Assembly: GCA_949152475.1 (NCBI GenBank)
Contig: OX424563.1
Location: 4,127,001 to 4,191,000, forward strand
From: Terebella lapidaria
Lineage: Eukaryota; Annelida; Polychaeta; Terebellida; Terebellidae
Reading direction: 5' to 3'
Length of the DNA stretch: 64,000 nt
The position numbers and the translations under genes are program-made. Below are positions 24,284 to 60,400 of this stretch, piece by piece; within the stretch, counting starts at the first letter, position 1, and every line of letters starts with the position of its first letter. Below the pieces are notes generated by a model. That model made no database searches. It worked only from the letters and a program-made list of their open reading frames with translations, and was not told where the DNA came from.

Positions 24284-24430
24284 TTGGTACCAGAAGTGGG
24301 GTTTCTTCAACGGTTTGCTTCAGCGGACAACCATGAGACCCAGTCTACAGTCAACCCCCAGAGTGAGACGAGCCTGTTGACACCAAGCTGTTACCGCCTA
24401 CGTGGGGGCTTCCCTGTTCTGCTCGTCTTC

Positions 24431-25812: not shown

Positions 25813-26735
25813 ATGTCGGAAGACGACAAATTGAAGGATGAACTGGACAAGATGCACGAGGCCCTAAAGATATCGCAGCAGCGAGAACAAGAGTTCCGGG
25901 CGGAACTGGACAGGGAGCGTCATCGTGAACCACAATCCCGCATTGAGCAAGCGGAAGCACGACCACTGTATGTCACTTCAAAGCGACATGCAAGCACATC
26001 TAGATGGACAACGGTTATCGAAATCTCAAAAGGCAGCTGTTGTCATGGAGCATCTTTCCGGATCAGCAAGACTTGAGATACAGGGGAGAGGAGATACAGT
26101 GTCAACAGATCCAACACAAATATTCGCCGTACTGAACAAGGTCTTTGGGGACGGTGACAGTATCAGCCAACTCATGTCACGCTTCCATGCCTATCAACAA
26201 AAGAGCGGTGACAGTCTCATCAACACATCACTCGATCTGCTTGCCCTGTTCCAGAGGATGATTCCACTTGATCCGAACTTGTCATCAAGGAGAGACAAGA
26301 TGCTGAAAGATCGCCTAGCAGAAGCTGTGCTGGACGAGAATCTTAAATAGGGCCATACAGTGGTTGGGATCACGCAGTTGCCTTCAGTCACAACAACCAC
26401 TTCGACAAGTATCTAACCAAGAAACTCCGGCAACTGCCACCGACCCCATCATACAGCTTCTGAGAAACCAGGAAGAGCTACTAAAGACACTGACAACAGA
26501 AATGAAAGATTTACGCACAACAAAGCGGAAACCAAGGGGACGTAATGAGAATGGGGAATTTGTCTGCTATCAGTGTAATCAACCAGGACACATGAAGAGG
26601 GAATGTCCTCAGAGGACTCCTAGGCAGAAATCAGCACAACAATCAGAAATACAGAGTCTAAAAGATCAGGTGCAAAGGTTGACAGATGTCATGGGAGCAG
26701 CCCAGAATCGTGATGTGCAGCCAAAAGAGTAGAGT
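25813..26735 (+). pseudogene. gag: gag-like region of the LTR retrotransposon
   Basis: The region begins MSEDDKLKDELDKMHEALK, a charged, probably coiled-coil start. It continues through capsid-like sequence and ends with a CX2CX4HX4C zinc knuckle (CYQCNQPGHMKREC, 26,565-26,606), the nucleic-acid-binding motif of retroelement nucleocapsids. The region is broken as found. Confidence 0.85.
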
Positions 26736-26752
26736 CTGTTACTGAGAGCCAA

Positions 26753-29700: not shown

Positions 29701-30913
29701 CCTGCCAACGATGCGCAGTGTCCAAGTTTGGGAAGAAGGTGAAGGCACCCATGGGGAACCTGGTTGTCACAAAACCTCTGGAAATGCTGGCCGTCGATTT
29801 CACTATCTTGGAGCCTGCAAGTAACGGGATGGAAAATGTCCTAGTTATGACGGATGCCTTCACCAAGTTCACTCAAGCAATTCCTACCTGAGACCAAAAG
29901 GCCAAGACAGTTGCCAAAGTTCTCATCAGGGAATGGTTCGTCAAGTTCGGAGTTCCGTCACGTCTCCATTCAGACCAGGGAAGGTGTTTCGAGGCCCAAG
30001 TCATTCAAGAGCTATGCAACATATATGGGATCAAGAAAACGAGAACTACTCCCTACCATCCTGCCGGCAATGGACAATGTGAGAGATTTAACAGAACAAT
30101 GCATGATCGTCTGAGAACATTACCACCTGAGAAGAAGCGGAAATGGCCGGAATATCTACAGGAAATCATCTATGCATATAATTGTACCCCCACTCAACCA
30201 CCAAGTATGCCCCATGTGTCCTGATGTTTGGGAGGGAACATAGATTGATGATCGACAATGTCCTTGGAATCCAAGACTCATCTAGTCAAAGTAAAGTAGA
30301 GGCCAGTAACCTGGATGAGTGGGTTGCAGAACACTATAGGAATCGGACTAGAGCATTCGAACAAGCTTACGAGAACCAAAAAGCTGAGGCTGAGCGCAGA
30401 GCAGCACTGCATGACCGAGCCGTCAATGATACTGGACTCAAGACAGGAGCGATAGTCTATCTCCGGAATCACCCACTTGGAAGAAATAAAATCCAAGATG
30501 TATGGAAGTCTTCTGCATACAAGGTAGTCGAACGACTGGATCCTGAAGGGAATGTCTATCGTATAGATCCTCATGGTTGGGAGGGTGACCAGAAGGTTGT
30601 AAACCGTGCCGAGCTGAAGGACTCTCATCAGGTCGTAGAGCATCATCAAATTGAAGAACCATCACAAGACGCCCCATCTGACACTTCAGACAGAGTAACA
30701 CTTATTCAAGAACCATCAGAGCGGGAGAGGAAAGAGTCAGAGGATAGAGGCTCGGAAGTCTTGGTATTCTCCATTCCAGACACGGTGATGACAGCAATGA
30801 CACCGGATCACTCACCACCAGTCGACAAGAGTACAGACAATGCCAGTGCACCCCAGCCAAGGCCAGAAACAGATCACAAACAACATCAGATGAAACGGAG
30901 ATGCCAGTGTTGA
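26753..30913 (+). pseudogene. pol: pol-like region: protease, reverse transcriptase, RNase H, integrase
   Basis: Parts in order are: an aspartic protease with LLDTGA (about 26,855-26,872); reverse transcriptase blocks including KLRLCIDYRHLN (about 27,965) and YLDDIL (about 28,279-28,296); RNase H beginning ETDASHVGLGAVLSQ (about 28,757); an integrase HHCC zinc finger (H...H...CKACQRC, about 29,598-29,712) and catalytic core; and an integrase C-terminal region to about 30,913. The order is that of Ty3/Gypsy. The region is broken as found. Confidence 0.9.
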
Positions 30914-31195: not shown

Positions 31196-32118
31196 TGTGA
31201 CAGGTTGGAAAATGTCACAATGTAGAGTCAGCATGTTCGAACCATTATGATTTGTCATAACGTGTAAAGTATACAATCGTTATTCTGTTAACGGTAACTG
31301 CTGCCATCTAGCGAGTGCGAGTATTGTACATACTTCCTGGAAGGAAGTGACGTAGTTTTGCACACGGTTCAAAGTCATCAGTTGGTAAGTAAGGAATTTG
31401 TACTGGTATTTGCTGAATAACTGTGTATAATATGTAATAACATATTCTGGTAATCTAAGATCACTGTTTTATAACTTATAAGCTTGTCCAACTAGAAAAA
31501 TCGTGTGTATTTCTTTCTTAGTAGATCTAATAGTTTTCCCGGCAGCCATATTGATTTTTGACACACGTTCATCATGGTCATAAACTATTTCTGTCTGTAC
31601 TAGGATACCTTTGCCAAAATATTAGAGTAACTATCAGCAAATTGTGTATTATGAAATTATCTAGGAATTCCGATAATTTGGGTTTTAACAAGTGTATATA
31701 AGTTCTGAAGTATATTCTTACTAAATAACTGTTGTATTCACATTTAGCTGTTTAACTCAGAGATGCACACAGGATGGCACTGACCAACTCATAGCCAATG
31801 TCCTCTCACTTTGGGGTAAGACTCCATTTGATGTGTTCGGTATGAGTTCCTCGCTCAAGCTAATTTGTTATTTAGTAAACTTTTACCTAGTCTATCTGGC
31901 GGGTTAGCGAACCTGAAGGAAACAAATTAGATGTCACTAAACATTAACATAATCATGGCTATCCATGGGTTGTTACTATACGAGGCCTGTGTTGTATCAA
32001 ACTTACACCACCATTTATTTGTTATTGTTGTGTGCCTTGTTATCATGTCATATATTGTTTATTTTTCAATAAAGGGTTTGACACCGCATTACTTGTGTTG
32101 AAGACGGACCTCCTTACA
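31196..32118 (+). repeat. 3' LTR
   Basis: Starts TGTGACAGGTTGGAAAATG after a purine-rich stretch and ends CCTCCTTACA, followed by TTAG. It is shorter than the 5' LTR but otherwise nearly identical to it. Confidence 0.93.
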
Positions 32119-32749
32119 TTAGGTACTTGTGTACTTGTCATATTCTATTCCATGGGGTTTGTTTCGGATTTCCAAAAAATTCTGATAAAGTATTTGGTTG
32201 GGCTTTGTTTCTATTGCAAAATGTTGCATTTTACGTTTGTTATTGGAATCATCAAAATTTGGCTGTATTGGTGGTAATAGGTTGATACTTACATATATTG
32301 TTTTTCGGAAAATGGAATTAATGATAATAAGTTAGTTCAAGTTGTTTTTACAACAATGTGAAATATCCAATTTGAGGCATGTGATCAATTGAAGACAAAA
32401 ATATGAACAATGGCATGAACAAGTATAGAGCTGTTGATACTGTCAAAACAGATTACTAATTCTGAATAAGTTGATAAATACTCCACTATTCAGATCTATT
32501 ATCGTCCACAATATAAATAGTTACCATGAGAAACATTTATAATTGGATCACATAATTGGATAACTAGCCAAAGCTTTTGTCTGGAACTTTTAATACTGAC
32601 ATGATTGTCGAAAGAGACTTGTCTGGCAGAAATGATATTTCATCTGAATTATCACATTTTTGGCAACAGGATCAAGGGAAACACACCCACGCTCCGGCGA
32701 CCAGGAAGTGTGTAGTTACCAATGGTCCGCTACAACCACATATATATTC

Positions 32750-36394: not shown

Positions 36395-36395
<1 letters not shown>
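36060..36395 (+). other. Open stretch of unknown nature before the GAT repeat
   Basis: After copy 3 of the large unit ends, one frame stays open to 36,312 (ending SYSDLEDFSFEASEDKLT). A second, short frame gives MDPDSTDSDDDD as it enters the GAT repeat. The GC content is higher than in the surroundings, as in coding exons, but no domain is recognised. It may be the remnant of a gene or of a transposase 5' exon. Confidence 0.25.

Positions 36396-36434
<39 letters not shown>
36396..36434. repeat. (GAT)13 microsatellite
   Basis: Thirteen uninterrupted GAT units. They pass into a G-rich purine tract (36,435-36,600) with many GGGG and GGGGG runs separated by ATGA and TGA. Confidence 0.95.
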
Positions 36435-36989: not shown

Positions 36990-37610
36990 TGAGTTGCACT
37001 AAAATTTAGTTGTATTCATTGGAATGCAGTTGCTTTAAATACTGCCCCATTTCAAATGGGAAATCATATATTGCAGTTTCAGTGGTGGCCCTGAGTTTGA
37101 ACTTCAATGACCTTGAAAGGTCAAAATGGCCTCTTTTGTCAAAAAACGACCAATTTCTGATCTTGATGGCTATTTCTTTCAAAACCTGTTAAGACGGGTT
37201 TGATACTTTTGTTTCAAAAGATTTATCTCATGTACATTCGCAACATGTACAAGTTTCATCCCCCTTGAGTCACCGATCTGCAAGTGGTGGTCATTTTGAT
37301 TTTACAACGGGTCTTGCCCGATTTAAGTCACTATTTGCTTTGAACCATTTCCAGAAATAAACGTTTTTTTCCCATTGATTTGTTTGGGTAATTCAGCCTT
37401 CATAATGAGAGTTGCAGAGAGTAATATCCTAGAACACTTCAAGATGGAGCTCAAATATTGAAACATTCAAACTGGAATATATGTATGGCGAATTTACCGG
37501 TGACCTTGAGTTTGACTTTCAATAACCTCAAAAGGTCGAAATAGCAAGGATTTGTTGCAGTTTAAGGCGAATATTTTTCTGGTAACCTTTCGTAGCCATT
37601 GAGTTATTTT
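36990..37610 (+). mobile_element. Diverged relative of the pearl/HINE-like core
   Basis: Blocks such as TCAAAATGGCC, CAATGACCTTGAAAGGTC and the TGACCTTGAGTTTGACTTTC block resemble the element at 20,647-22,044. A GGTAACCTTTCG near 37,581 echoes its right-end GGTAACCTATCTTCGG. No terminal repeats are clear. Beyond it, to 37,960, nothing is recognised. Confidence 0.45.
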
Positions 37611-38087: not shown

Positions 38088-38333
38088 TTTTCACATTGGC
38101 GGCAATCTATCCTGTATTTGCTCTATGGCTTTCTGGTGGATAGGGTAAGAAAGGACACTGGAGTGTTGTTCAAGCCAGAACTGACGTAGGGTGATCCCTT
38201 CTTCTGTGTACTTGACTTGGGTAGGTGAAGTCCCCGGTGATGAACTTTGCTGTTTCTTTATTTTTCGCACAATGGAGGATGCAAGTTTCCTTGGCGACGG
38301 TGATGTATTTGACGTGTTGTCGCTGAGGGATCA
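38088..38333 (-). CDS. Terminal exon of a YVP-family small basic protein (inferred)
   Basis: Read on the minus strand, an open frame without a start methionine ends in LRQFWLEQHSSVLSYPIHQK, then an AIEQIQDRLPPM stop at about 38,088. This matches the C-terminus of the plus-strand gene at 41,596 (VLEKHSSVLAFPVKQK, then TIEDIQDRLPPVS) almost residue for residue. A possible splice acceptor, CTGATCCCTCAG, lies at about 38,322-38,333, giving an exon beginning CGACAACACG. The upstream peptide is Ser/Pro/Lys-rich (SPRKLASSIVRKIKKQQSSS). An ATTAAA variant polyadenylation signal lies about 110 bp downstream at 37,973-37,978. I did not find the upstream exon with the YVP motif. The function is unknown. 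Confidence 0.6.
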
Positions 38334-41300
38334 GCCTCGTCTTGATTTGAAATATTTGGATGATGGTGTTATGGGACTTTGTTGGCTGCCTTCGTCACAA
38401 AGTTGTTGGAGGTTATATGAGTTTGTGCTTCTCTTCATGATTTCTTATTTCGCTTTTCAGTTGCAACATTCACAATATACAAATATTAAATAATCCAGTA
38501 CGAAAGATGTAGGTGCAATGATGAGTAAATAATCAAACACTTGAAGTTTTACTTTGAATGTAATCTCACAATTCCACTTCATTCACAAGGCAAATCCAGT
38601 TAGTGGCAATCGGTTAATATGGTGGAATATTTATAGGAATTGAACCATCAGTAACTTGTTTTCACAGTTATTTTCAACCCGCCAATTATAAATGCGTCCT
38701 TTTGATAGTGTTTGCTTCAAAGAGGATTAGCGTCATGCGTTGGTGCAGGTTTAATTTCATTGATCTTCTTTAACTTGAACCGGAGTGTGAATTCCAACAC
38801 ATAACTGCTCTGTATTATATTGTATTGTATATTTATTTTTGTCTCACCCAGTATTATAGTACATAAAATATATATACTTTGTATATATATATATATTGAG
38901 AATATCGTTACACACATGAATGATTCTCCATTGAAGGTGCGTGTGCATGATTTACCTGAAAGGAACCTTTGCATTGCAATACCTACAACAATCGTGGGTC
39001 TCCGTAATTAGGCCCAGGGCTTATAAGGGGGGAAACGGTGCTGCATCCCCATAAAATTTACTCCATTTACGGGCCCATGAGCGCATATTTGAGGGATAAT
39101 TTTTATATCGGCTGTCCAATTGTAACAAACGGTCCTATGATTATGCCTGTATTAGTATACTGAATCAGTATGAATTATTCCCCAAAGCGAATGTAACCGT
39201 GAACCACACAGAAAAATTCGTGAAAATGCTAATTGTCATCCTGCTCATGAGATCAATTACATCAAGCCACACCAACTAGATAGTTGATGACATTTCCATG
39301 ATAACATGTGTCCACAATGTGTGGTACACATGAAAACTTCCAATGAATTGCGTTTATGTTATGTTATGTACTGCAAAGATCTGTAAAGCTGCACAAGTAT
39401 AATTGGCTGTTTCGGAGAAAGCCTCCCCTGCTTCCAGAAACGTGTAATGACAGTACAATACATGACGTTCACAACAATGCATGGCTGAACTGCTTTCTAA
39501 AAATTCCTAAACATTGTACTGTACAACCTCCCCAAATATATACCCCTGTTTGCATTCAAATGCACTCGATCATAGGGCATGGGCGTATTCAAAGCTAGAA
39601 CTCTCCTTGTATAAGCCCATGGGCGAAAATTTGGATGAGCGTGAATGCGGGCATCCCCCAGTAATAAGGGTAATTCCGGAAGTTTTGTGGAATTGCCTTT
39701 CATGACATGTTTATAGATTCATTATGATTGCATGGATTTTCGGGGTTCAACCAATATATTTTATCTTTTTTTTTTCTTTTTCCTTGTTTTTTTTTTACTA
39801 TTAAGATTGCATATCGGTTATGTTCTGGTAATTTCAATGATATAGTACCATGTGCAATTTTAGTTTATCTCTCGGCCGTTTCCTAACAAACTTACATGAT
39901 ATGTCGATTATATATTCTGCATATATCTATGAAGGTGGTGTGAATAAGCGATTAACAATTTCATCAATAAATCAGTAGATAAATACAGTTGAATGTTGCA
40001 TGAACAAATGTAACTTACGTTGCCTACTCGACGCAGTACATGGTGCAGTTTCTTAACTACAACGAGTGCACATATCCGTGACCAATAACCTACCCTTCAA
40101 TTCCAAGTATCCCATCGATATTCACGTCAAAGTGATGTGCAAATACTAATATCTATTGCGATTAACTGAAAATGTCTTGTGCCGCTGGTCAGTGAAACGC
40201 TAAGTGCAGATCAGCAGATTATTCGTATGGGAATACCGTCAATGCTCAGCTATCGAGAGTGTTGTACTGAGGTGTGAGATGTTGTTGTGATTTTGGTTCT
40301 ATAATACTCTCAGAAATTGTTAGAGTCGCTGAATTCTTGATATTTACAATTAAGGTTACAATGTTACTGATAAACACGTTATTACAATTATTTTCTTTTT
40401 CCCTGTGTATGCTTCATGCAGATGAATAAAATGCTATTTTGAACATCAAATTACGATCTAATGTCATGGTAAACCACAAAACAGGCAGTAGGTTATTGTT
40501 CTATGATGAGTAATATAACCATAGTCAAGAAGCTGCACCCTAAGACGCTGTCTGCTATCTATGTAAGTGACATTTATTTGGAGGTATGTAGCGTTCAGGA
40601 TCTGTATGATTATCGACTGGGTTTTTAATTTGGCCATCGGACAAGTCTGTCGTCATTCACAGAACCTACGGAACAATTTTCAGTGAAATTCAATGCCAAA
40701 CTGCAGAGATATAGCCCAAATGAAACATACCAGAATTCGGCTGATAAGGCATAGATCCTGACTGTCAAGCGACCTTAATATATTATCTATATTAATATAT
40801 ATTATTATTATTATATTATTATACTATACTTTTAGATTTTTTTCTGAATGAACAGTGCATAATATTGAGAAATAATGTGAATACAAACATGAAAATAGAA
40901 AATATATCACAGTCGTCAGATGTGCCTGGTTACTATGGCAAGAATACTTTACCTACGGCTCATAAAAAAGCTTTAAACTTTATTTATTTTACAACAATTG
41001 ATGAACAAGCATCAGCTTATATTAACATCTCTTGTTGACTCCTGTGAGAGGAAACCAGGGAACCTGGTGAAAACCCACTCGCCTGGTTTGGCGATCACAT
41101 ACCACCTCACATACTGCCGAGGCCGGGGATGGAAGCCGCGCCTAAACCGACTGCATTGGTGAGAAGTCAGCCCACATACAAATGGAGCTAACTAGGCAAC
41201 CATTTGGCTCACAGCAAGTTGGATGCTAAGGGATTCATTTCGGGATTAAAAATAAGGTTTAAAAAATTATCGAATGGTTTTCAGAAATGTCTCTCATACA

Positions 41301-41595
41301 TCTGTTCATAAGTTTTGTGGCACCTAATTCAAGTTTCATGGCGTTGAGTACAGGTACTACAATGCACGCAACAGAAAGTCACTATCCATCTAGTTCTTTC
41401 TATAAATTCATGACGGAAATCATCTAATTAAATAACTGTGAAAACTAAGCTGCAACTTCATGATAATTGCAATTATACACACAAAATTACTATATATATA
41501 TGATCTTAGCAGCCATCAATGACATAGTACCTTACCACTTGCGTCACTGGTAAACACTATTGCTGCTTAAACATTCATCACATCAAATAATAAAT
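38334..41595. other. Long interval without a recognised gene
   Basis: AT-rich sequence with short TA-rich tracts (38,880-38,900; 40,790-40,830). Any upstream exons of the minus-strand YVP-family gene should lie here, but none could be identified. Short open frames at 39,356-39,705 have no domain. Confidence 0.5.
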
Positions 41596-41994
41596 ATGAA
41601 GACAAAGACAATTTTTAGTCTGAAAGCAGGCTCAGCTGTAGTTAAGGAACCTTGCTGTTTAAGTTATGTGCCACATGTTCCATCCAGGGTCATTCTCTCA
41701 AATACTATTCCCAACAAACTGACATCTCCAGTGAAATCAACAAAGATGGACACTAGAAAGTTCACGAAGAATTCATCAACTACTCTCAACTCTCGGATAT
41801 CCAATAGCAGGCTGCTGAAATGTATCACAGATCATCCTTGTGGCCAGAAAATCCTGATTGAACCAAAAGTTACTCTTTCGTCTAGGGTGCACGGACGCCA
41901 TTTCGTGCTGGAGAAACACTCCAGTGTACTTGCTTTCCCAGTCAAGCAGAAAACTATTGAGGACATTCAAGATCGCCTTCCACCAGTTTCATAA
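41596..41994 (+). CDS. YVP-family small basic protein, longest member
   Basis: The protein is about 132 residues from the methionine at 41,596; an upstream in-frame ATG at 41,560 is possible but extends only this member. It has no signal peptide and no membrane segment, and is rich in Lys, Arg, Ser and Thr, so probably disordered and basic. Near residue 29 is SYVPHVPSR, the family motif seen as GYVPYVPR in its neighbours. The C-terminus, VLEKHSSVLAFPVKQK followed by TIEDIQDRLPPVS, is shared with the minus-strand exon at 38,088 and, in part, with the other genes. AATAAA follows at 42,091-42,096, about 97 bp after the stop. The function is unknown. Short basic proteins with Gly-Tyr/Pro motifs occur among ciliary microtubule inner proteins, but that link is only a guess. 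Confidence 0.7.
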   Translation: MKTKTIFSLKAGSAVVKEPCCLSYVPHVPSRVILSNTIPNKLTSPVKSTKMDTRKFTKNSSTTLNSRISNSRLLKCITDHPCGQKILIEPKVTLSSRVHGRHFVLEKHSSVLAFPVKQKTIEDIQDRLPPVS

Positions 41995-42090
41995 ATATTT
42001 TGTTTCCTATATTGTGTCAGTATGTTAAAATGTTATTGATGAGAAAGTGCATCACGGGTGATTTTGTTCTTACATGTTTGATTACTCGCA

Positions 42091-42096
42091 AATAAA
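42091..42096 (+). promoter_or_regulatory. Polyadenylation signal AATAAA
   Basis: AATAAA about 97 bp after the stop of the gene at 41,596. Confidence 0.6.
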
Positions 42097-43341
42097 TGCA
42101 TTTTATTTAATGCTTGTTTAATACACTATTCTTCCATGATAATTATGATAAGAAACTTGATGCTTAGTCCTCACTCAATCCCTGTGCAGGGAACAATGTC
42201 GATTCTTACAGTTTTGACATGATATATGTTTGTGTATTATTTGTTTGTTCATGAGCGAACAATGCATTATGGTTATTGAAGTCGTGGTGTTATCATGAAA
42301 CACCTGATTGAATTGGAGAATTAACCTAAGGGCTAATGTAAAGGGCCATACAAATGGCATGTTTTTTTTTTTAAATTTAGCGGGGAATGACTTGAAAGAC
42401 AGTGAATTATTCAAGGTCCATTAAAGGCAACAATAATACAGGTCACAAATATGAGACTCATGTTCATCCTTTAGAAGAAAAAAACATATTGTAGAGATTA
42501 TGTGAAAACGACTGCCATAAGTAAGAAATTTCATGTAAGAATTTTTTAAAAGAAAACAGTCAAAAACAGAAAAACATAATACCTCCTTCAGTGGATATTT
42601 GAATATTTTTGTGAATGTTTTCGAAACATCTGAATGTAAATTTCACGGATACAAACATGGACAAAACCCCAGACACAAAAAAAACACCCAGACAAAGGCA
42701 CACCCAGATGCAGTGCATACAATCTGTGCTGACCCTATGAATGACCGTACAAAAGTTTATTTTTAATGTGGAATTTAACAAAATACAGGCAAACATATTG
42801 GCTATGGCAGTATGGCTAAAAATTGTTATATTTGGCATATATTATGATGTCTATTTCAAGTTTCCACGCTAGTTTTCATATTCCAGTGTTAAAATTTGCT
42901 GACTTTTTAAATATACGAAAGATGCCATTAGAAAAAAATCGTATATATGACAGAGGCAATGTGTGGGACATATTTAATTTTCATACAAATGACAAGCTTT
43001 TCTACATTTTATTGGGTGTTCTGTCTGCTCGATCATCAATTCACAGTTGTTGAAAATACTCATCAGCATTATTTCTTGGGATGTGTTTATAATCATATTA
43101 ATGGTAATAGCAATTTAATAAAATATTGATTAGTTTCACATACTTCAAAGGATAACAATTGTTTTCAAATGAGCTACGTGACCAAACTTGATTCTTTTGT
43201 CTATGTTTGTCACAGTTTGAGGTAAGGATGTGAATTAAGCACATAAAGCTGGGGATGTGCTAGTTGTCAGTTGCTAGTTATCTATCCTTATGATATTACA
43301 TCTGTACAGAAACCAAAATATATTGCTCTTCATTTACAAAA

Positions 43342-43650
43342 ATGGAGAACTACAAAACAGAAAGTTTGATTGGGTATGTTCCTTATGTGCCAAGACGAAC
43401 AGTGGAATCGCTGGAAAAGCCGACAATGACTTTATACAAAGAGCATAAAACTGCCAACAAGCCAAACATCACAGGAAGTGCAGTTATTCACCAACTGGTC
43501 AGAAAGAGAAAGCTTGTCTCTGATGGCATGCGTCAGGAGGAGACCCAGAGGAAACATCAGAAATCAAGTTCATGGCAAGATATTCACCCCAAGCTGACTT
43601 CACTCCCAGTCATTGGTCAAAAATTAGAACAAAATGCAGTCGTTAGATAG
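43342..43650 (+). CDS. YVP-family small basic protein, duplicate A
   Basis: A 102-residue protein that starts MENYKTES, then IGYVPYVPRR at residues 10-19, with a very basic middle (HQLVRKRKL). The end, SSWQDIHPKLTSLPVIGQK, aligns with the family's C-terminal block (W-L-E-x-H-S-S-V-L-S-x-P-x-x-Q-K) but stops soon after. There is no signal peptide. The start is set by the first methionine, in AAAATGG context. AATAAA lies at 43,710-43,715. Compared with duplicate B at 50,585, I count eight replaced and about eight silently changed codons over 94. Since silent sites are about a third as numerous, this points to purifying selection on the protein. The function is unknown. Confidence 0.75.
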   Translation: MENYKTESLIGYVPYVPRRTVESLEKPTMTLYKEHKTANKPNITGSAVIHQLVRKRKLVSDGMRQEETQRKHQKSSSWQDIHPKLTSLPVIGQKLEQNAVVR

Positions 43651-43709
43651 AATCATGCATTTGTAATGTGCATATCATAATCATAAATATATTCACCATT
43701 TAAATGGCA

Positions 43710-43715
43710 AATAAA
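43710..43715 (+). promoter_or_regulatory. Polyadenylation signal AATAAA
   Basis: AATAAA 60 bp after the stop of the gene at 43,342. The same signal is kept in the duplicate at 50,953-50,958. Confidence 0.65.
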
Positions 43716-43910
43716 ACTATCAAACATGATTTTATTTTTGTTTTGTCAGTGTGAGTTATTTGCAACATTTCAGGAGTCAGTTTCCTCTTGCAAGTAGGAT
43801 CAGTATCAGTCAAAACCATTGATAAAATGTTTGAACAGTCATTGACAGTTCCGAGAAAAAAATGCACACCATTATCAATCATGCCTTGATATTTGCATGA
43901 TGTCTTTATA

Positions 43911-43994
43911 GAATATCTGCACCAGATGGCTGATTCTTTTGAATATCTGCACCAGATTGCTGATCTTTTTGAATATCTGCACCAGATCGATGAT
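43911..43994. repeat. 30-bp minisatellite, three units
   Basis: GAATATCTGCACCAGAT recurs at 43,911, 43,941 and 43,971. The array is not present in the second duplicated segment. A related single GAATATATGCACCAGAT occurs near 51,295. Confidence 0.85.
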
Positions 43995-45000
43995 TATCGC
44001 TGGTGTATACTACGTATCACAATGTATCAGTGTATCTCCAAACAACTCTACACACCATTCAAAAACATCACGTGGGTAACACATGTTTTGGATTAAATTC
44101 GAAACTATAGATCACATTAATACTTGTTGATGTAAAAAAATAAGACCACACCCAAGTAGAACACCACTACAAGCCTGTATCAGTAGGAAGAGAAGACAGA
44201 GTGATTGAATAGAAATAATGTGTTCTGGAACAAATGCACATCTATTTTGCAAAAAAATAGCATGCACTAATGTTTGCATCATGGTTTTGTTGAATGTATT
44301 CACCAGATCACTGTTCATTCTCACTGAAACTTGCATATGCCACACATTGTGTCTACAAGAAGCTCTATACAAAATCCATATATATCACATGCTGGAACCA
44401 ATACATGTCACTAGATCACAAGGACAAATATTCATATTGCGTCCATTGCTTTTCCTCTCACTTGATATTCATTTGCAAGTTTCAACATAATTTTGAATGG
44501 CATATTATATTCATAGTTGATCAGAGAAGCACCTAGTTTGAAAAAGATGGTGATGGTATTGCATATTGGTGAATGTTTATATCAGAGTGTCTCATGTAAA
44601 TGACCTGATAGGAAGATGGTCCAACATAAATTGCGGGTCCTCCTTGATCATGTCCAAGCACCTTGGCAAAAAGAAAATTAGTCCAAAGGCAAGGAGATGT
44701 TTTTTTTTCGAGAAATGTAGACTGTTGAGCCAGAACATTCATTTGTCTTTCTCTGAACTAAAAATCTTTCGAACAGTTTGAAGAACAATATGTCAATGTA
44801 ATAATCAAATATGTCTTCAGTTGTGTGAAAACACATACCGTCACTAGAAAGTCACCGGTTGAATGTACACACGCTTTCTAATATGAGAGAAAGCAACAAA
44901 TGCTGTAAACATACAAATCACTGAGCAAATATCATGCATAGGTGACATATGACATTTCATAAGTCATAAGATAGCATATTTATATCACTCATGCCTGAAA

Positions 45001-45409
45001 ATATTATTTTGTGACCTGAACCGAATGGCTGGAAAAAGCTCAATTTATTCCAGTACATAATTTCTTACAACATTCGTCCTGAAATGTTCCTCCTGAATAA
45101 AATATGTACAGTTATTTGCAATCAGCTTGCAAATTTCAAAGAATAGCTTTAGTCAATTGCAATTGCTTTAGTTGATTGCAATTGACAAGGAGCATTCTTA
45201 GGGACAAAAAGGATGTAATGAAGTTTGATAATTGAAATGTTGCAACAATTGTTTTGCGGAATTAGCTTTGATCATAAGAAAGCCATGATAGCTTCTCATA
45301 CATTGGTGTTGAAGAAATTTGTATATAAGGATAGATTTTGCAATGAAGAATTACCGATCCTTGTTCTACAAACAAAACACTCTATTCAAGTGACCAGTTT
45401 GAATCAGTA
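45001..45409. other. Upstream region of the gene at 45,410
   Basis: Nothing definite is seen. It lies outside the duplicated segment and includes a short imperfect repeat, AGTTGATTGCAATTG, near 45,150-45,185. Confidence 0.4.
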
Positions 45410-45799
45410 ATGATGAGGTCCAAAATTACAAATATAAATGCAAACAGTCTCCCAGTCGGATATGTCCCATACGTACCTCGCACTCAGGAAGATAAAACAC
45501 AGGAAAGAACCTTTCAACATGATGCAAATCCATCTTTGCGAGAACCTACAAAGAAGCATTTCACAAAACCTCACCACAAGCTATCCACTAGGAAATGCCC
45601 AGTTTCTGTCAGAATAAACAGATCAAAAGTGAAAGTCAAGACAAGATTCACACCTGAGATGGTGTCTTATCTGACGTCAGAAGCTGCCTGCCAGGAGAAG
45701 TCCATGGCTGGAGATGCACATCAGTGTCATGTCTCATCCTGTCAGGCAGAAGACCTTCCAAGATGTCCAGGACTGGATGTCTTAGCTTGTGTTAATTAA
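45410..45799 (+). CDS. YVP-family small basic protein with frameshifted C-terminus
   Basis: The annotated frame has 129 codons and carries VGYVPYVPR at about residues 16-24, followed by a basic, Lys/Thr/Ser-rich middle. Its last 30 residues do not match the family. However, the +1 frame from 45,705 to a stop at 45,783 reads WLEMHISVMSHPVRQK then TFQDVQDWMS, a clear match to the family C-terminus (WLEQHSSVLSYPIHQK). The +1 frame is open only from about 45,675, so a frameshift lies between there and 45,705. Either this member is decaying, or an unseen splice or a sequence error explains it. AATAAA follows at 45,892-45,897. The function is unknown. Confidence 0.65.
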   Translation: MMRSKITNINANSLPVGYVPYVPRTQEDKTQERTFQHDANPSLREPTKKHFTKPHHKLSTRKCPVSVRINRSKVKVKTRFTPEMVSYLTSEAACQEKSMAGDAHQCHVSSCQAEDLPRCPGLDVLACVN

Positions 45800-45891
45800 T
45801 CGCGTGTTTACCACAATGTGTTATTCGCCTTATTTATAAAGGATATACCACTTGCATATGTTTGTGATGCATCTGTGTTGATGTCTTATGA

Positions 45892-45897
45892 AATAAA
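45892..45897 (+). promoter_or_regulatory. Polyadenylation signal AATAAA
   Basis: AATAAA about 93 bp after the stop of the frame at 45,410. Confidence 0.55.
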
Positions 45898-46720
45898 TGT
45901 ATTGATTGAATAATAGTATATTTTCATTCATTTAAGTGAAATTTTATATATACAATGACAGCTGAGTATATGGATGGAATTTAAAAATAGTAGAACACGG
46001 ATATATGTTTTGATTTATACACATGTCAACATTCTCGTTCCAAACGCTAACGCAATCATGCAAACTCTAACAAAATGGAAGGACATATAGCTTGAGAGAG
46101 CTAAACGGATCCATGCATTGGGACAAACATTGAATTTATAGCATCAGACAATGTACATTTGATCCATTCGACTCGTGGACGAAAATGATCTGAGTGCTAT
46201 GAATATCAATGCTCAACATGTTCATTAACATAATAGATATACATGAGTATATCATGTATATCCTGGACACACAATATTTTGAAGTTGAAGACATATTCTC
46301 ACACACCTCGCCCAACAAATCCAAATATTGCACTCTTCATCTGAATATTCACAGTTTACCAAAGAAGATAAATGAACTTAAAATCATGCTTTCGAACTTA
46401 CAAAACACTGGGATAGTTGTGCACTTTATTCTGTTATGCGAAACCTTCCTGAACGACAATACATTGAATTTATGCAGCATACCTGGATATAACCTTGAAT
46501 GCCGTAACAGACAGGGTGGGACACGGGGAGGGGGTGTCGCGCTGTACATACATGATTCGCTACATTACGATATTGCTGGCCATAAATGTTGATTGCGAAT
46601 TTGAGTCGATTTTCATCGAAGTAAAACATAGTCAGCAAAACACAACTGTGGGTGAAATATACCGAATCCCAGGCACAAACGAAACACTATCAATATCTAG
46701 ATACGAAACAGTACTTGAAA

Positions 46721-46799
46721 AGTTAAACGGAACTAATTCTGACGTTATACTTGGTACAGATCAAAATTTTGATTATATATATATATTCGTTTATTCATC
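46721..46799. repeat. 79-bp direct repeat, left copy
   Basis: Identical to 47,678-47,756. The pair flanks the minus-strand LINE inserted into the endonuclease of the older LINE and is best read as an unusually long target-site duplication. Confidence 0.9.
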
Positions 46800-47677
46800 A
46801 GATACATCTGATACATTTCAAGGACATGAAATTTACATTATGATGACAGAAAAGAAAAATACACGATGATGATTCACTCAGTGCATAGGCTGTATAACAT
46901 GAACTCCATTTCTTCTTTCTTTAAGGTATCATAAGATGCATGGTCTCTCATAGACAGTAATTCACGTATAATACTAGCATAACAACCCAGCACTCCTTCG
47001 GAGCATACTTGTTTAGCTGGCTTGATTGGAACATTGACCAGGTCACTTTTGTCAAGATTATAAAAAGCACACAGCTCATTAATGTTTTTGGATAAATTGG
47101 TGTTACTACCATGTATTGCTAAATTATAAGCAGTTTTCACATACATATTCCGACTATTACATAGTTGACGGACGAACCGCGCGAGCCGTCGATATAATTG
47201 TTGCTTCACATCTAGATCTGCACAAATCAAATGAAGTAGGTTACAGTGCGTATTGTAGGGCAAATTGAATAGTTTCCTTATACATTTTCTCCACGCTATA
47301 AAGAATCGTTGTACATGGACAGACCCAATATCCCACAGCTGAACACCGTATAACGACATACAATATGATTTAAACAGTTGATATTTAACCTCGTATGTCA
47401 TTTTGTTGAAGTGCGAATATACCATATTGAACCGAGCAAAGAAATCTGCGACAGTATTGTCAATAACTTCTTTTTTTACATCATTACCGATTATATTACC
47501 AAGGTGTTTCTCACTCTTCACGAGACGTATTTGGCTATTCATGAACACAATTTTAGGATCACAGTAAGTAGGTTTCATGGAAAACACCAAGAGCTTGCTC
47601 TTATTAGGGTTAAATAGTACATGAAATTCTATGCCGTACGTTTCACATATTTTCAGCATTTTTCGCAAACCTGATAC
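46800..47677 (-). mobile_element. 5'-truncated LINE inserted in the older LINE
   Basis: A minus-strand frame of 264 codons (47,668-46,874) encodes a LINE ORF2 C-terminal part. It begins near the thumb-side block FNPNKSKLLVFS, then has KHLGNIIGNDV and a basic C-terminal region with RKLFNLPYNTH. It ends YSLCTE and is followed by a 3' UTR of about 70 bp. Everything upstream of the thumb is absent, the usual 5' truncation of LINE insertions. The frame is fully open, so this copy is younger than its host LINE and belongs to a different family. Identical 79-bp repeats lie on both sides. Confidence 0.85.
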
Positions 47678-47756
47678 AGTTAAACGGAACTAATTCTGAC
47701 GTTATACTTGGTACAGATCAAAATTTTGATTATATATATATATTCGTTTATTCATC
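47678..47756. repeat. 79-bp direct repeat, right copy
   Basis: Identical to 46,721-46,799. After it, the older LINE's endonuclease reading resumes. Confidence 0.9.
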
Positions 47757-50584
47757 TGTTTTATGAAGTGACTACTCAAATACCCTTGACATTATATCCA
47801 AATACACTCTAACAAGCACTCCGATGAATTACTTAACACCTTCATAGCATCTGGCTTCCTACCGACCGTTAATAAACCAACCAGAATAACACATAATAGT
47901 GCGACATTAATCGATAATATATACGTAAAGTGTTCCAACTACAATAATGTTAAATCTGGCATAATACTAAGGGATATATCTGATCATTTGCCCTTGTTTA
48001 CTGTTATGGGGGATACTTGATACTTCGTCCAGCAAGGTACAGTCCCTAACTATAACTTGTCGTCCTCTCACTTCTGAAAATATGATGTATATATGTAATG
48101 ATCTCAATTCAACAGACTGGACATATCTCGACCGAAGATATCCTTCACAAACAAAGTGAAACAGGCTATGGACAAATTTGCTAATGAAATAGACAAAACA
48201 ATCCCACGAAAACGTGTAATAAAAGAACCCTGGATGACACAAGATTTGTTACAGTCATCATCCAAATGTATCAAACTTTATAAAAAAGTGCCTACGTAAA
48301 TCAAAAACAGATAGTTCTTACCAAAAATATATTAAGCATAGGAACTTATTCAGAGCTTTGAAGAGACAATGCAAACGTGAATACTATGGGTCTCTTCTTG
48401 ATAAATACAAATTTGATGTGAAAAAAACGTGGAAAATTTCGACCAATGTTGTAGGGTGAACAAATGACAAATCATCAATCACCGACACCTTTCTTATCAA
48501 TAATAAACCTGAGACTGATCCAACCAAAATCGCTGACGGGTTCTGCAAATATTTCTCAAACATAGGCGTTTCACTGGCAGAACAAATTCCATCAGCCCCT
48601 AAACATTTCACTGAATATCTAAGTAAACAACCGTACCCAAACTCTATATTTCTCAACCTCACTGATCCCAACGAGGTCATGAAAATGATAGACTCATTGA
48701 AAGGCAAAAAATGTTCAGGAGTTGATAATTTGAGTAGTCACTTCATAAAACAGATAAAACATGTAGTTTGCACCCCAATATCATTACTAATAAACAAATC
48801 AATTTCAACGGGAATTGTCTCTCAGCAAATGAAAACGGCGAAAGTAATCCCAATCTACAAAAATAAAAACAAGCAAATGCTGAATAACTATAGGCCAATA
48901 TCACTATTACCCTGTTGCTCTAAATTCTTGGAAAAAAATCATCCACACACGACTGTATACGTTTCTTGTACAACATAATATACTCTATCCTAAGCAATAC
49001 GGATTTAGGCCCAAACATTCAACTATTAATGCAGTTACAGAATTTGCATTCAATACCCTAACTGGCCGTAACAATAACATGTACACACTTGGAGTTTTCC
49101 TGGACCTCTCCAAGGCATTCGATACTATTGACCATTCTATTCTGTTGTCCAAATTTGAATATTATGGTATTCGAGGGATTGCCTTGGAGTGGTTCAGAAC
49201 CGTGAGCAGTATGTCAAGTTCAAAAACTCATTACAAACCTCTATCCTATAAAATACGGTGTGCCAAAGGGTTCAGTATTGGGTCCGTTGCTTTTTATCAT
49301 ATATTCAAACGATATTCCCAACTCAATAACAAAATCAAAATGTTTTTTATTTGCAGATTATACAACGTTGTATTATACTCACAGTAATCTTCAACACCTA
49401 TATCACATTGTTGAATCAGATATCCTCCTCATGATTAATTGGTTCCGGAGCAACAAATTATCACTTCCTAAGCAAAAGCAAAACTAAAATAATCTTATTC
49501 TCCAAGAAGCTGGTACACAACTACAACACCCATTCGTTAAAAGTCAATACCGAATACATTAAACCATCACTTTCTGTTAAATTTCTTGGTATCCATATAG
49601 TATGCTTTTTAAAAAAAATTAGCTGGAAATGACTCAAAAGACAATGAATTGATCAAGGTCCATCAAAGGCAACAATAATACAGGTCACAAATACAAATGT
49701 GAGACTCATATGCATCCTTTAGAAGAAAAAAAACATATTGTAGAGATTATGATAAAACAACCGCCATAAGTAAGAAATTTCATATAGGAATTTTTGAAAA
49801 AAAAAATTAAAAACAAAAAAAACATAATACCTCCTTCAGTGAATATTTGAATATTTGTGTGAATGTTTTCGAAACATTTGAATGTAAACTTCACGGATAC
49901 AAACATGGACAAAACCCCAGACACAGGCACACCCAGATGCTGTGCGCACAATCTGTGCTGATCTTAAGGATGACCCTACAAAAGTTCATTTTTAATGTGG
50001 AATTCAACAAAATACAGGCAAACATATTGGCTATGGCAGTATGGCTAAAAAATGTTATATTTGGCATATATCACGATGTCTATTTTAACTTTTCAGGCTA
50101 GTTTTTATATTCCAGTGTAAAAATTTGCTGACTTTTTAAATATATTCATCTATAGAGCAATAAACGATAGGTGGCATTAGAAAAAAATCGTTTATATGAC
50201 AGAGGCAATGTGTGAGACATATTCAATTTTCATACAAATGACAAGCTTTTCTACATTTTATTGGGTGTTCTGTCTGCTCGATCATCAATTCACAGTTGTT
50301 GAAAATACTCATCAGCATTATTTCTTGGGATGTGTTTCTATTCATATTAATGGTAATAGCAATTTAATAAAATATTGATTAGTTTCACATAATTCAAGGG
50401 ATAACAATTGTCTTCAAATGAGCTACGTGACCAAACTTGATTTTTTTGTCTCTGTCACAGTTTGAGGTAAGGATGTGGATTAAGCATAAAGCTGGGGATG
50501 TGCTGGTTGTCAGCACAGAACCATCCACCCTTGTGATATTACATCTGTACAGAAACCGAAATATATTACTCTTCATTTTCAAAA

Positions 50585-50869
50585 ATGGAGAACTACAAAA
50601 CAGAAAGTTCAATTGGGTATGTTCCTTATGTGCCAAGAAGAATAGTTGAATCGCTGAAAAAGCCGACAATGACTTTATACAAAAAGCATAAAACTGCCAA
50701 CAAGCCAAACATCACAGGAAGTGCAGTTATTCACCAACTGGTCAGAAAGAGAAAGCTTGTCTCTGACGGCATGCATCAAGAGGACACTCAGAGGAAACAT
50801 CTGAAATCCAGCTCATGGCAAGATATTCACTCCAAGCTGACTTCACTCCCAGTCATTGGTCAGAAATGA
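50585..50869 (+). CDS. YVP-family small basic protein, duplicate B (shorter)
   Basis: A 94-residue protein, eight replacements away from duplicate A over the shared length. The motifs IGYVPYVPRR and SSWQDIHSKLTSLPVIGQK are intact. It ends eight residues earlier because the codon after GQK is TGA where duplicate A has TTA; the following bases still resemble duplicate A's coding end. AATAAA follows at 50,953-50,958. Conservation of the frame against a roughly 10 percent diverged background supports a real gene in both copies, though this one may be slightly degraded. The function is unknown. Confidence 0.7.
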   Translation: MENYKTESSIGYVPYVPRRIVESLKKPTMTLYKKHKTANKPNITGSAVIHQLVRKRKLVSDGMHQEDTQRKHLKSSSWQDIHSKLTSLPVIGQK

Positions 50870-50952
50870 GAACAAAATACAGTCGGTGGATAGAATCATG
50901 CATTTGTAATGTGTATATCATAATCATAATTATATTCACCATTCATATGGCA

Positions 50953-50958
50953 AATAAA
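50953..50958 (+). promoter_or_regulatory. Polyadenylation signal AATAAA
   Basis: AATAAA 84 bp after the stop of the gene at 50,585, in the same place as in duplicate A. Confidence 0.6.
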
Positions 50959-51376
50959 ACTGTCAAACATGATTTTATTTTTGTTCTGTCAGTATGAGTT
51001 ATGGGCATCATTTCAGGAGTAACCTTCGTCTTGCAATTAGGATCAGTATCAGTCATATCCATCGATGAAATGTTTGAACAGCAATTGACAGTTTAAAATA
51101 TGCACACCATTAACATTAATAGCGTGATATTTGCAACAAATAAGACAACGCCGAAAATAAAACACTACTACCAGCCAGTATCAGTAGGAAGCAAGGACAA
51201 AGTGCTCGGATATAAATAATGTGTTCTGGAACAGACGCACATCTAAAATGCAAAAAAAATATCATGCTCTAATATTTGCATCAAAGTTTTGTTGAATATA
51301 TGCACCAGATCACTGTTCATTCTGAATGGAACTCGCAGATGCCACGCGTTGTATCTACATGAAGTTCTATACAATA

Positions 51377-51580
51377 TGATAACAATATCAGTCCCAGGTC
51401 AATATTTCATATTCCAATTATTCACGTTATGATCGTGATCAGAATGCATACGTTATGGTTTAGTTGTTGCTTCATTGTTTATTCCTCATTCATTGTAAAT
51501 ATCATTTTTCATCGGCAAATAGCTGCTTGCAGCTATTGTTTTTGTTGTTTTACCCCGACGTTAAATAAAGTTATCTTAAT
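51377..51580 (+). mobile_element. Short 5'-truncated retroposon tail
   Basis: About 200 bp present in the second duplicated segment and absent from the first (near 44,375). It ends TTTACCCCGACGTTAAATAA then AGTTATCTTAAT, the style of a LINE or SINE 3' end. Borders are approximate. Confidence 0.6.
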
Positions 51581-51740
51581 ATCCATATATATATCATAGA
51601 CTGAAATCAATACATGTCACTAAATCAAACGGACAACTATTTATATCGCATCTTGTGCATTTTCTGACACTTGATATTCATTTTCAAGTTGCAACATAAT
51701 TTTGAATGGCATATATATTCAAAATTGGCCAGATCAGCAC

Positions 51741-51986
51741 CTAGTTTGAAATAGATGGTGATGGTGTTGCGTTTGGATGACTGTTTGTATCAGTGTGGCT
51801 CGGGTGAATGAACTGATAGGAAGACCGTCCAACAGAAATTGCGGGTCCTCCTTGATCATGTCCAAGCACCATGGCCAAATGAAAATTAGTCCAAGGGCAA
51901 AGAAATGTTTCTTTTTTCGAGAAATATAGCATGTTGAGCCATAATATTTCTCTCATCTCCATTGTTGTTTTTTTACCCTTAACCAT
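51741..51986 (-). other. Minus-strand open frame conserved in both duplicated segments
   Basis: An 81-codon minus-strand frame shares the block VLGHDQGGPAI and the ending PSPS(I/F)SN with a 69-codon frame at 44,742-44,533. The nearby nucleotide sequence is similarly conserved, so the coding signal is weak. It may be an unrecognised exon or just duplicated non-coding DNA. Confidence 0.25.
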
Positions 51987-52280
51987 ACAATATGTTTGTT
52001 ATTACTCTTTCTCTAAATTAAAAAAAAATCTTTCTAATTGTTCGAAGTGCAATATGCCAATGTAATAACCAGAAAATTATTCAGTTGTGTGGAAATACAT
52101 ACAGTCACTAGAAAGTCACCCAAGGTTGAACACACAGTTTCCAATATGAAAGAAAGCATCAAATGATGTCAACAAATAAATCACTGCACAAACATCATGA
52201 ATATGTGACATAGGACATTCCATTAGTCATAAGTTAGTACTCAATTATTCATTGATTTATATCATTCATGCCTGAAGAAA

Positions 52281-52816: not shown

Positions 52817-53690
52817 GCCCAAGGGCACAGAAAGGTTACCGGATAACTATATAGTATTAAACAGCAACCAATATTGCTGTTACGACCTTTCAAGGCTATT
52901 GAAAGAACAAATTCAAGTTCACCTGTAAATTCGCCGTATATGACTTCCCATTTGAACGTGTCAATACTTAAGCTCCATTTTGAAGTATTCTGGGAGATTA
53001 ATCTCTACAGATCCCATAATAAAGGCTCAATTCACCCAAAAAATCAATGGCAAAATACGTTTTTGGCTGGAAATACGTTTTTGGCTCGAAACGAATAGTG
53101 ACCTGATTCGGGCAAAACCCTTTGAAAAATCTATATGGCTGCCAGTTGTAGATCGGCGACTCAAAAGCAATGAAACTTGTACAGGTCGCGAATTAAGGTA
53201 CATATGTGGAATGATTTGAAACAAAAATGTCAAAGCTGTCTTTACAGGTGTCGAGAAAAATGGCCGCCTGAGTCAGAAATTGGTGTCTTTTTGACAAAAA
53301 AAAATGCTGTTTTGACCTCTCAAATCATTGTAGGTCAAATTCAAGGTCACCACTGAAACTGCAGCATATGGTTTCCCATTTGAATGTGCCAACACATAAG
53401 TTCTATTCTGAAGTGTTGTAGGTGTGTACTCAATACAACTGCCATTATGAAAGAAATTTTGGGTGAAATTTATTAAGCCCGATAAAAAGATTCAAATGGG
53501 GTAATTTTTTTTTTTTTCGAAAATTCAAAATGGCTGGTATACGCGATTCAAGGGCAACAAAACTTCTATATATTGCAAAGGTAGATAAGGGAATCTTTGG
53601 AAACAAAAATATCAAAACTAAATAATATCTCCCTCTTAAATTATTTGATTTTTGTACAAAATTTCAGAAATATGGCCATGCCATACACTT
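52817..53690 (-). mobile_element. Diverged minus-strand relative of the pearl/HINE-like element
   Basis: The sequence AGCCCAAGGGCACAGAAAGG then TTACCGGATAAC at 52,817 corresponds to the right end of the element at 20,647-22,044 read on the other strand (GGCCAAGGGCCGAAGATAGG, TTACCGGAC). Following blocks (ATGGCCGCC, AGGTCAAATTCAAGGTCACC) match its interior. This second terminus supports the boundary of the family. The far end near 53,690 is degraded. Confidence 0.55.
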
Positions 53691-57368: not shown

Positions 57369-57376
57369 TATAAATA
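57369..57376 (+). promoter_or_regulatory. TATA box of the secreted-protein gene
   Basis: TATAAATA lies 65 bp upstream of the start codon at 57,434, placing a transcription start near 57,400 and leaving a short 5' UTR. Confidence 0.7.
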
Positions 57377-57433
57377 TGGGTCTCTTGTTCTGGTGAAAGC
57401 ATCCCCCGGACGGAGTGCAAGACTTCTGTCACC

Positions 57434-60400
57434 ATGGACTCCAGGCTGATTTTCTGTGCCGTTCTTGTGGTAGTCGTTCATGTGGAAGGCTACTCCTATC
57501 CTACAACGCCAGCTCCTGACCGTAAGTGTGGAAACTTGTTAGGCAATCATGTATCAACTTCGATACCAATAGACACCACTGTTCTGGTAGTTGGATGAAC
57601 ACATTTCCTTGACTAACGCGTTCGGTATTGATTATGGTTGGGTATGGGCCCCGGACTGAGAAATTTGTTGCTGTCTACAACATAATATATAGGATATGCC
57701 TGAAAACTTTTCAGGCAACCATGTATCAACACTGATACCATTAGACAGGACTTTCCTGGTAGTTGGATTTGCATTGTTTTTTTAATAAAGCATCCGTTAT
57801 TTTCTGTGGTTGGCTATTTGGGGCTCAGATTAAGAGGCTAATTAATGTCTATAATATAATTGTCAAACAAATCAGGATACAAACTGTCTGACGATAGGTA
57901 TACATGTATTAACAATTTTTAAACTGGGTTTATGATGAGAGACGAGAATTGTACGTGGTGCAAAGCCCCACATCTCCACGGGTGAAATAAGTCATTATGG
58001 CAGGCTCATTTCTGGCACTCTTTCCATTTTATGGCAAACTTCCTTTTATATTCGTGTAATTGCATGAGCCTATATATCAGAGGAACGATGTTCATGTAAC
58101 AAAAATACCGGCGTAAAAGAAATGGTATTTTGCAGAAATAGTTGCTGATTAATATACGTCCAAGTATATATGTACAATTATATACGTAAAACAAACGTTA
58201 AAGACTACTACCGTTTGGAAGCAGATTTTCCCATGGATCGACCAGAATACCCCCATTGGATTCCAATAATGTACTCAAAAATTATCCAATATGGGGAGAC
58301 AATAACGTTGTCTTCACCTTGCGATTTGCAAAGCATTTCAGACATATTTCAAATGTTCGGCAGAGGGTAATTCCGGACTTTGACTACAAAGTATCGACTG
58401 TTAAGCCAGAAGGTTATAAGCGCCATTTTTGTCCAAAATCACTTTTTGTCATATTTGGAATATATTATCTATATATTATCTATTATCTATTATCTAATTA
58501 TCAATGCACCAGCCTTATAAAGCGAAAATACATAGATTTATTAATGTTTTTCTAAAAGGTTATAAGTGCCATAGCAATTGATACAGATAAGCCAGAAGGT
58601 AAAAAGTGCCACTGAAAAACGCCAGGACACAAGTGAATCACAAATAAAATACATATAAACACCAAGAAGTGCCAGAAGGTTACAAGCGCCATGTGTACCA
58701 GGCTCACACAGTGCAGAATGTATGTGCATGACTGCGTAGGTATGTTCTTTCTTCTATATCATGTACCCATAGCCATGACATGAATAAATTGTTTCAGGCA
58801 TAAAGGCACAAGAGAATGTTACTTTGGATGCAGCAGGCAACAATGGCACGGGGCCTGAGCTTGACGAAACATGGCATATTTTGTTCCGTAAATATAACAT
58901 ATCGGATGTTGAAACAGTGATGACAAGCTGATCAATTTTTTTTTGCTTTTTCTCGGTAATCTGCACTAGACTGCTGCCTCATGTGTAAAGCCTAAGCCAT
59001 GTCAGGCCAAGCTTTCTCTGTGTCTAGGGTGTTTATCAGCACGCGCGTTTGTGTGTGTGTGTGTGTGTGTGTGTGGTCACGGTGGCCATCATTCCCGCGT
59101 TTTTGCCGATTAAAAATTCAATTCCGTGTTGTTATAGTTAGGTCCCGCGTTATGGTAAAAGTTTCGAAATGGGCCTGGTAAAAAACGATAAATTCATACA
59201 GATACCTAATGCATTGGCGTACAACCTAGTTCGACGGAATATATATCAACGGTCAATAGACAATAGCTTGATATTTATTAGTCCAATCATCATTTTGCAC
59301 CAGTGACCACAGTTACGTTGATCGGGCGACAGTTGTCAAAATCGGGGGATATTTTCGTGCTAAATTAGCCATACAAATACATAAATAAGTAAAACATGAT
59401 ACAGAAATGTGTATTAGGATTAGTTAATGTCCAAGAAACATGAATAAGCCATATTTTCCCTGACGAACAGCTTGAATCGGTTCCTGATCGAAAGTTTGTT
59501 GCATCCGCGTTATTGCTCATCAAGAACACGCGAAATTGCTGGGGATCGAGGCTGATATAATGTGTATGCAGTCGGCCACAATCATGCAGATGATAAAATA
59601 TGTTTATTTATTTTCATCCACTTACACGAAGGGCGCTGCTCGATCCAGCTGAACACATATTTTCGATGAATTTGTTAAGAATTACTGAAAAAAATAAGCG
59701 TTGCTGTTATAATGTTTCAGTCATGTTATTTCCAGCACCGACATTTTTGATAAACAGACCTAAACATAACTATGTTTATTTTTGGCATTAATCTCAACAA
59801 TCAGTGCCTACAGTAGTTCCACTGAATTGTAGCATTAGCGTGAGATGAAATGATGACAACCAGCGCAGGCCTCATCACGAGGCAGTATTTGGGACCTGTT
59901 TCACCAAACTCCGATATTGAATCCGAACCTGGTTCTTCTCATGTGGGTCGAGGTCCTCGCTATGGGGCTTTCTATTTTCATGTATTCTGTACATATATTC
60001 TGACGAAACTGTTGGACCGAAGCGGCCCACAGTGTGGCATAATCAATAGACCAAGGAGGCATACACATCATCCTCAATGTCCGTATGTAATGCATTTTAT
60101 TATGTGTATATCTATACTTCAACGTTTATAGCATAATGGTTGAATGTAGGGTGTAAAAAGATGGGTGACATCTCTGACGGAATATTTTGCAATCATATAA
60201 CATTGATAGCGTCACCCCTCGTCCCAGTTCTGGATATACATGTATGTGGAATATTGCAGGAATATCAAAAGATCCGGAATCGCGAAAACACCGCTTTCTC
60301 TGAATAAGGGCGGATAATTTCATTAACTAAGTACCAATATATCGTCCACAAAATGTGGATATATCGTTTGGATACAAGTTACCACTAAATGATGCTATAC

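Follow-up and report, generated by a model that had tools for sequence, protein, structure and literature searches.

The window analyzed here, a 64,000-nucleotide stretch of contig C9 of the Terebella lapidaria genome (C9:4127001-4191000; 761.6 Mb in 438 contigs), very probably harbours members of a true gene family rather than of a transposon, and represents an outpost of that family, in part a graveyard. We consider it reasonably probable that this is a multigene family with apparently single-exon members, which was amplified in tandem on contig C6 and recently copied to C9, where the copy is now decaying, and that the encoded proteins are probably disordered chains carrying two motifs.

Family members in the window

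A reading of the window from its sequence alone (hereafter the sequence-only reading) had proposed five loci for short proteins within 13 kb. Five members are indeed found at 38091-50869, but only three of them (A, B1 and B2) are open, while C and D are broken. Member A (41596-41994, plus strand) is intact and encodes 132 aa, with SYVPHVP near the N-terminus and a C-terminal LEKHSSVLAFPVKQKTIEDIQDRLPP. Member B2 (50585-50869, plus strand) is likewise intact, with 94 aa. Member B1 (43342-43650, plus strand) is open and reaches 102 aa because it has lost the usual B stop, so that 8 codons are added; among the ten B copies read, the other nine all use the stop after ...LPVIGQK. B1 and B2, the second B copy, lie on a locally duplicated stretch of about 2.5 kb, with the left copy at 42364-44856 and the right copy at 49606-52120 (both plus strand), pieces of which are 78-95% identical.

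Member C (45410-45785, plus strand) carries a 4-bp tandem duplication near 45689 that breaks the frame and shifts its C-terminal block, WLEMHISVMSHPVRQKTFQDVQDWMS at 45705-45782, into a different one; the intact C copies on C6 (n = 10) encode 121-123 aa. Member D (38091-38438, minus strand) is a pseudogene with an ATG at 38438 and an in-frame TGA at 38331-38333, and retains the C-terminal block WLEQHSSVLSYPIHQKAIEQIQDRLPPM. Its intact version, of 115 aa, is open in 4 of 11 copies on C6.

Each plus-strand member is followed by an AATAAA, which begins 97 bp (A), 60 bp (B1), 93 bp (C, in the window frame) or 84 bp (B2) after the stop; the measured range of 60-97 bp agrees with the 60-100 bp reported before. 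TATA-like sequences were seen by eye about 80-95 bp 5' of the ATG in A, B, C and E, the last a subfamily present only on C6. The frames, with their AATAAA signals and TATA-like boxes, fit short single-exon genes. Also noted by eye were a ATTGCAAT-type palindromic sequence 5' of the ATG in A, C (window) and E (L063), and AACTGTGAAAAC 5' of A and D; both are possible shared promoter elements.

Motifs and predicted protein properties

The motif (G/S)YVP(Y/H)VP occurs in four of the five window members, as the sequence-only reading had stated, namely A (41596), B1 (43342), C (45410) and B2 (50585). D lacks it, and E has GYLACVT at the corresponding position. The pattern [GS]Y[VI]P[YH]VP was present in 0 of 300 simulated 13-kb sequences matched to the dinucleotide make-up of the region. 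The C-terminal block, previously assigned to four members, is genuine but is carried by all five, at full length in A, D and C and in the shortened form WQDIHxKLTSLPVIGQK in B1 and B2.

The basic nature of the window members was confirmed (pI 9.9-10.4, with C and D represented by intact C6 copies), and across the family the proteins have 94-144 aa and a pI of 9.8-10.5. Inspection by eye revealed no signal peptide. An AlphaFold run on the window's own sequences, with 5 sequences, returned a mean pLDDT of 52 and a pTM of 0.12, with one helix at 121-127, which suggests, at low confidence, disorder and one short helix.

No Pfam family matched above its curated cut-off, either for four window frames or for 13 family members that included the shorter B1. 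A match of DOR (PF14839) to B1 (E 0.02, 15.2 bits, against a curated cut-off of 25 bits) was attributed to chance; it was absent from the other three window frames tested and from the list of 13 members. Matches to Ubiquitin_3 (E 0.19), C5orf34_2nd (E 0.51) and Orthopox_F8 (E 3.6) were likewise taken as chance. Searches of the PDB by sequence and with two profiles gave no believable match (best E 0.054, 0.45 and 0.3), and one scan of viral contigs with subfamily A found no relatives. The string YVPYVP was not found in a full-text literature search, and none of the papers listed in a literature search for annelid orphan and tandem genes concerned such a family by its title. As far as Pfam, the PDB and, for subfamily A, viral contigs extend, these searches support the absence of the motif pair from the libraries used, in line with the earlier remark that no family with this pair was known.

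The sequence-only reading had offered sperm DNA compaction or microtubule binding as speculative roles, and the results speak neither for nor decisively against them. Small size, a pI of about 10, rapid change and amplification, together with one SPVK, SPRK or SPKK motif each in A, D and E, would be expected if these were sperm nuclear basic proteins, amplified as in Drosophila, whose linkers bind spermatid DNA and whose terminal blocks link to a histone or chaperone. In Drosophila, genes of this type are reported to have undergone 19 independent amplification events, preferentially on sex chromosomes (PMC9917458). The composition of the Terebella proteins argues against this identity, which we consider unlikely: lysine and arginine make up just 14-18% of residues (13.9-18.1% in five representatives), whereas typical protamines lie well above these values. 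Moreover, (S/T)Px(K/R) motifs are missing from the B and C copies scored, Pfam gave no match to a histone, HMG or protamine family, and neither the very high Arg/Lys content nor the histone-like or HMG domain by which such proteins may be recognized was found.

It is also conceivable, but quite unlikely in our estimation, that the proteins are microtubule-associated or microtubule inner proteins of sperm or cilia, with basic disordered chains running along tubulin and the two blocks acting as anchors. In general terms, this class accommodates chains that are short, basic and disordered and carry fixed short motifs, and the low-confidence structure prediction contains no folded domain. Against this, homology to doublet-microtubule families was not detected in the PDB or in Pfam by sequence, searches that can miss distant relatives: with two family profiles, the PDB yielded neither an axonemal nor a doublet-microtubule chain, and no ciliary family was matched in Pfam. 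Proteins of this class are also usually encoded by conserved single-copy genes, unlike the C6 array.

The C6 array and its copy on C9

Whole-genome protein searches were performed with seven queries (A, B, C twice, D twice and E), and the locus counts derived from them are lower bounds. Matches with E ≤ 1e-3 were confined to C6:13808440-14442740 (634 kb) and the window; the best match elsewhere, in searches listed to E 10, lay on C3 (E 0.159). Counting the pieces of one broken copy as a single locus, the genome contains at least 80 family loci, with at least 75 on C6 and 5 in the window on C9. The description of the family as dispersed therefore did not survive the genome-wide search, which found the C6 array and the single C9 copy. 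Subfamily B is the largest, with at least 29 loci (27 on C6 and 2 in the window), 28 of which appear intact by their open frame, followed by A with at least 20 (19 and 1; 16 of 20 apparently intact when read) and C with at least 17 (16 and 1; 10 apparently intact when read and 7 broken). Subfamily D has at least 12 loci (11 and 1), 4 of them intact and 8 broken, and E at least 2, both intact and both on C6, at 13.808 and 13.811 Mb. Since 8 of the 12 D copies share the same TGA, a broken copy was spread by the amplification.

The array consists of 11 recurrences of a unit of about 54 kb beside older, diverged copies. Its D copies are located at 13892163, 13947605, 14001018, 14055343, 14111819, 14168232, 14229553, 14273007, 14325998, 14388986 and 14431167, at intervals of 42-63 kb that average 54 kb. 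The diverged copies occupy 13.81-13.88 Mb, with protein identities of about 61-86%, depending on the query. With its many similar copies in tandem units the array has the features of an ampliconic family, and the family is apparently an orphan ampliconic gene family, a designation of kind and not of sequence family, which may be lineage-restricted as far as Pfam, the PDB and, for subfamily A, viral contigs show.

The window contains a copy of the C6 unit at 36395-64000 (plus strand), for which DNA matches were tested in stretches. Its left limit falls at 36395-36423, inside a GAT-rich microsatellite adjoining a dispersed repeat. Ten C6 places match the window at 36.4-38.0 kb (96-98% identity) and eleven at 51.9-54.4 kb (96-99%), and C6 places match at 55.5-58.9 kb with 98-99% identity, some as two pieces. 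The part at 58.9-64 kb was compared with the C6 unit (L067, L068) by eye, via open frames only, and a further piece matching the unit lies beyond the window end, at C9:4204430-4205635. The 96-99% identity across these stretches implies that one unit, or most of one, was copied to C9 recently, although the C9 copy may instead be an assembly error. Judged by these comparisons, the five small genes of the window are best described as an outlying, partly decayed copy of a repeated gene block that resides for the most part on another chromosome-sized contig.

The presence of eleven similar units, together with the interchromosomal copying and a turnover that leaves broken copies, would also be consistent with a conflict system. 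In that case the array would act as a meiotic driver or a suppressor, selection would bear on dosage, and the C9 locus would be a recent escape or a suppressor; published work on conflict and multigene families exists (PMC10618873). Unequal crossing-over alone can yield arrays of this type, however, and we regard such a system as very unlikely.

Other features of the unit, the window and the assembly

Two inverted copies of a gene for a secreted trefoil-domain protein also seem to be part of the C6 unit. Pieces of this gene are present in the window at 57374-57595 and 63607-63858, as well as in L067 and L068; the L068 piece matches PF00088 above the cut-off (E 7.6e-5), the window piece below it (E 0.046), and a signal-peptide-like exon was seen by eye. 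The unit also includes, at L068 1844-5368 (minus strand), an open frame of more than 1100 codons that resembles a non-LTR retrotransposon protein.

An LTR-type retrotransposon occupies another part of the window, with ends at 23645-24290 and 31500-32126 that are 96% identical and coding pieces at 25868-30913 matching protease, RT, RNase H and integrase zinc-binding domains; a frame with proline-rich tandem repeats is located just within its ends. In the segment at 46721-47756, an antisense frame of 271 aa lies between the two copies of a perfect 79-bp direct repeat; the frame is reverse-transcriptase-like by eye, has no Pfam match above cut-off and lies inside another non-LTR-like element; this segment is perhaps a nested insertion. 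An inverted repeat at 37051-37347 and 53082-53384 was considered as a pair of transposon ends and rejected, as it is a separate repeat present on other contigs.

Elsewhere in the assembly, COX1 on contig C438 reads as a single 514-codon frame under translation tables 4, 5 and 9; the gene neighbourhood (ND3, ND2, COX1) and the protein itself are suggestive of a lophotrochozoan, perhaps an annelid. Contig C417 bears a second mitochondrial-type COX1, which differs from that of the animal itself: it is a 717-codon frame that has a long insertion and uses TGA for Trp. C417 is perhaps a contig of a protist contaminant or symbiont.

Coding constraint

Constraint was assessed on paralogue pairs within this genome by Nei-Gojobori dN/dS, with figures taken from pairs with at least 6 differences, and by neutral simulation. 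The dN/dS values were 0.20-0.22 for B1 against B2, 0.46-0.50 for B against the copy at 13.818 Mb, 0.24-0.32 for D, 0.32 for E, 0.25-0.72 for C and 0.47-0.78 for diverged A pairs, with one close A pair at 0.91. Synonymous changes were in excess at P < 0.05 in 5 of 11 contrasts, the other six having P values of 0.054-0.40. Combining one contrast per subfamily gave P = 9e-5, in which the A contrast was the most different pair among those with main copies; a less diverged pair would weaken the result. Within the C-terminal block, comparisons between subfamilies showed a synonymous excess in five of six cases (P 0.0002-0.0062), with P = 0.059 for D against C. The end blocks are more conserved than the middle: in A, the amino-acid changes per codon fall from 0.29-0.34 in the rest of the protein to 0.17 in the C-terminal block and 0.06 in the YVP block, at similar levels of synonymous change throughout.

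The simulated chance of encountering no stop under neutrality was 0.11-0.65 per contrast, and an open frame by itself is therefore little proof of a gene. In four pairwise alignments of genes with their flanks (A, B, C and D), the coding sequences were free of gaps in A, B and D and had 6 gapped bases, equal to two codons, in C. In the flanks, 56 of 67 bins were gapped (A 13/14, D 14/14, C 13/14, B 16/25). Nine of the 25 B bins were gap-free, the nearest flanks of A and B are about as similar as the coding sequences, and alignment is hardly possible in the outer bins of A, C and D. By these measures, and at moderate strength, the frames behave as coding genes.

Among the findings that the sequence-only reading had itself named as counting against a family was that the frames are pieces of a known transposon; this was examined and not borne out, copies at E ≤ 1e-3 being confined to the C6 array and the window. 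That the frames are no genes at all, being transposon remnants or noncoding satellite with chance open frames, is highly improbable: the interval from C to B2 does contain retroelement pieces, broken copies are numerous and chance can preserve an open frame, but copies at E ≤ 1e-3 occur only at 13.81-14.44 Mb on C6 and in the window, no scattered copies bearing terminal repeats or genes for transposition were found, and the synonymous excess and the absence of frame-breaking indels from the coding sequences of intact pairs point to genes.

Proposed explanation and significance

Under the multigene-family explanation that we favour, tandem duplication of the unit of about 54 kb would have amplified the family on C6, and one unit would recently have been copied to C9, where it would now be in partial decay. 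Each protein, of 94-144 aa and a pI of about 10, would probably be disordered. The N-terminal YVPxVP block, absent from D and degenerate in E, would form a first short linear motif, and a basic, fast-changing linker would join it to the C-terminal block. That block, about 30 aa long at most (W-L-E-x-H-x-S-V-x-S-x-P-V-x-Q-K), would, together with its short helix, dock on a partner. We infer that both blocks may serve as docking motifs and that binding to nucleic acid or tubulin may be driven by basic charge. It is possible, but somewhat doubtful, that the genes are expressed in the germ line and that dosage or conflict maintains their high copy number. The most far-reaching version, an undescribed animal family defined by YVPxVP and WLExHxSVxSxPVxQK, with an array that acts as an active germ-line dosage or conflict locus and a recent decaying daughter locus on C9, would have to be called rather unlikely.

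By analogy, the closest parallels in kind would be amplified germ-line families, on which the literature includes work in flies, mammals and fish. The sperm nuclear basic proteins of Drosophila are, as reported, similarly small, basic, fast-evolving and repeatedly amplified (PMC9917458), but the Terebella proteins differ from them in their low K+R content and in that no DNA-binding domain was found, and the likeness shown is one of kind. Y-linked multicopy protamine-like genes have also been described in Drosophila (PMC10120018). The Slx/Slxl1-Sly genes of muroid rodents are likewise amplified to multiple copies, and conflict has been proposed for them (PMC7743899); the rodent genes are described as Sycp3-like, whereas no known domain was found here.

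The locus combines intact with broken copies, one end of the array is occupied by diverged ones, and its jump to another contig can be placed by sequence identity. Even if its genes are not expressed in the germ line, they still make up a family with two clear short motifs that can be put to the test and no match in the searched libraries. If they are, the family would offer a case, beyond flies and mice, for testing if amplification is driven by dosage or by genetic conflict.
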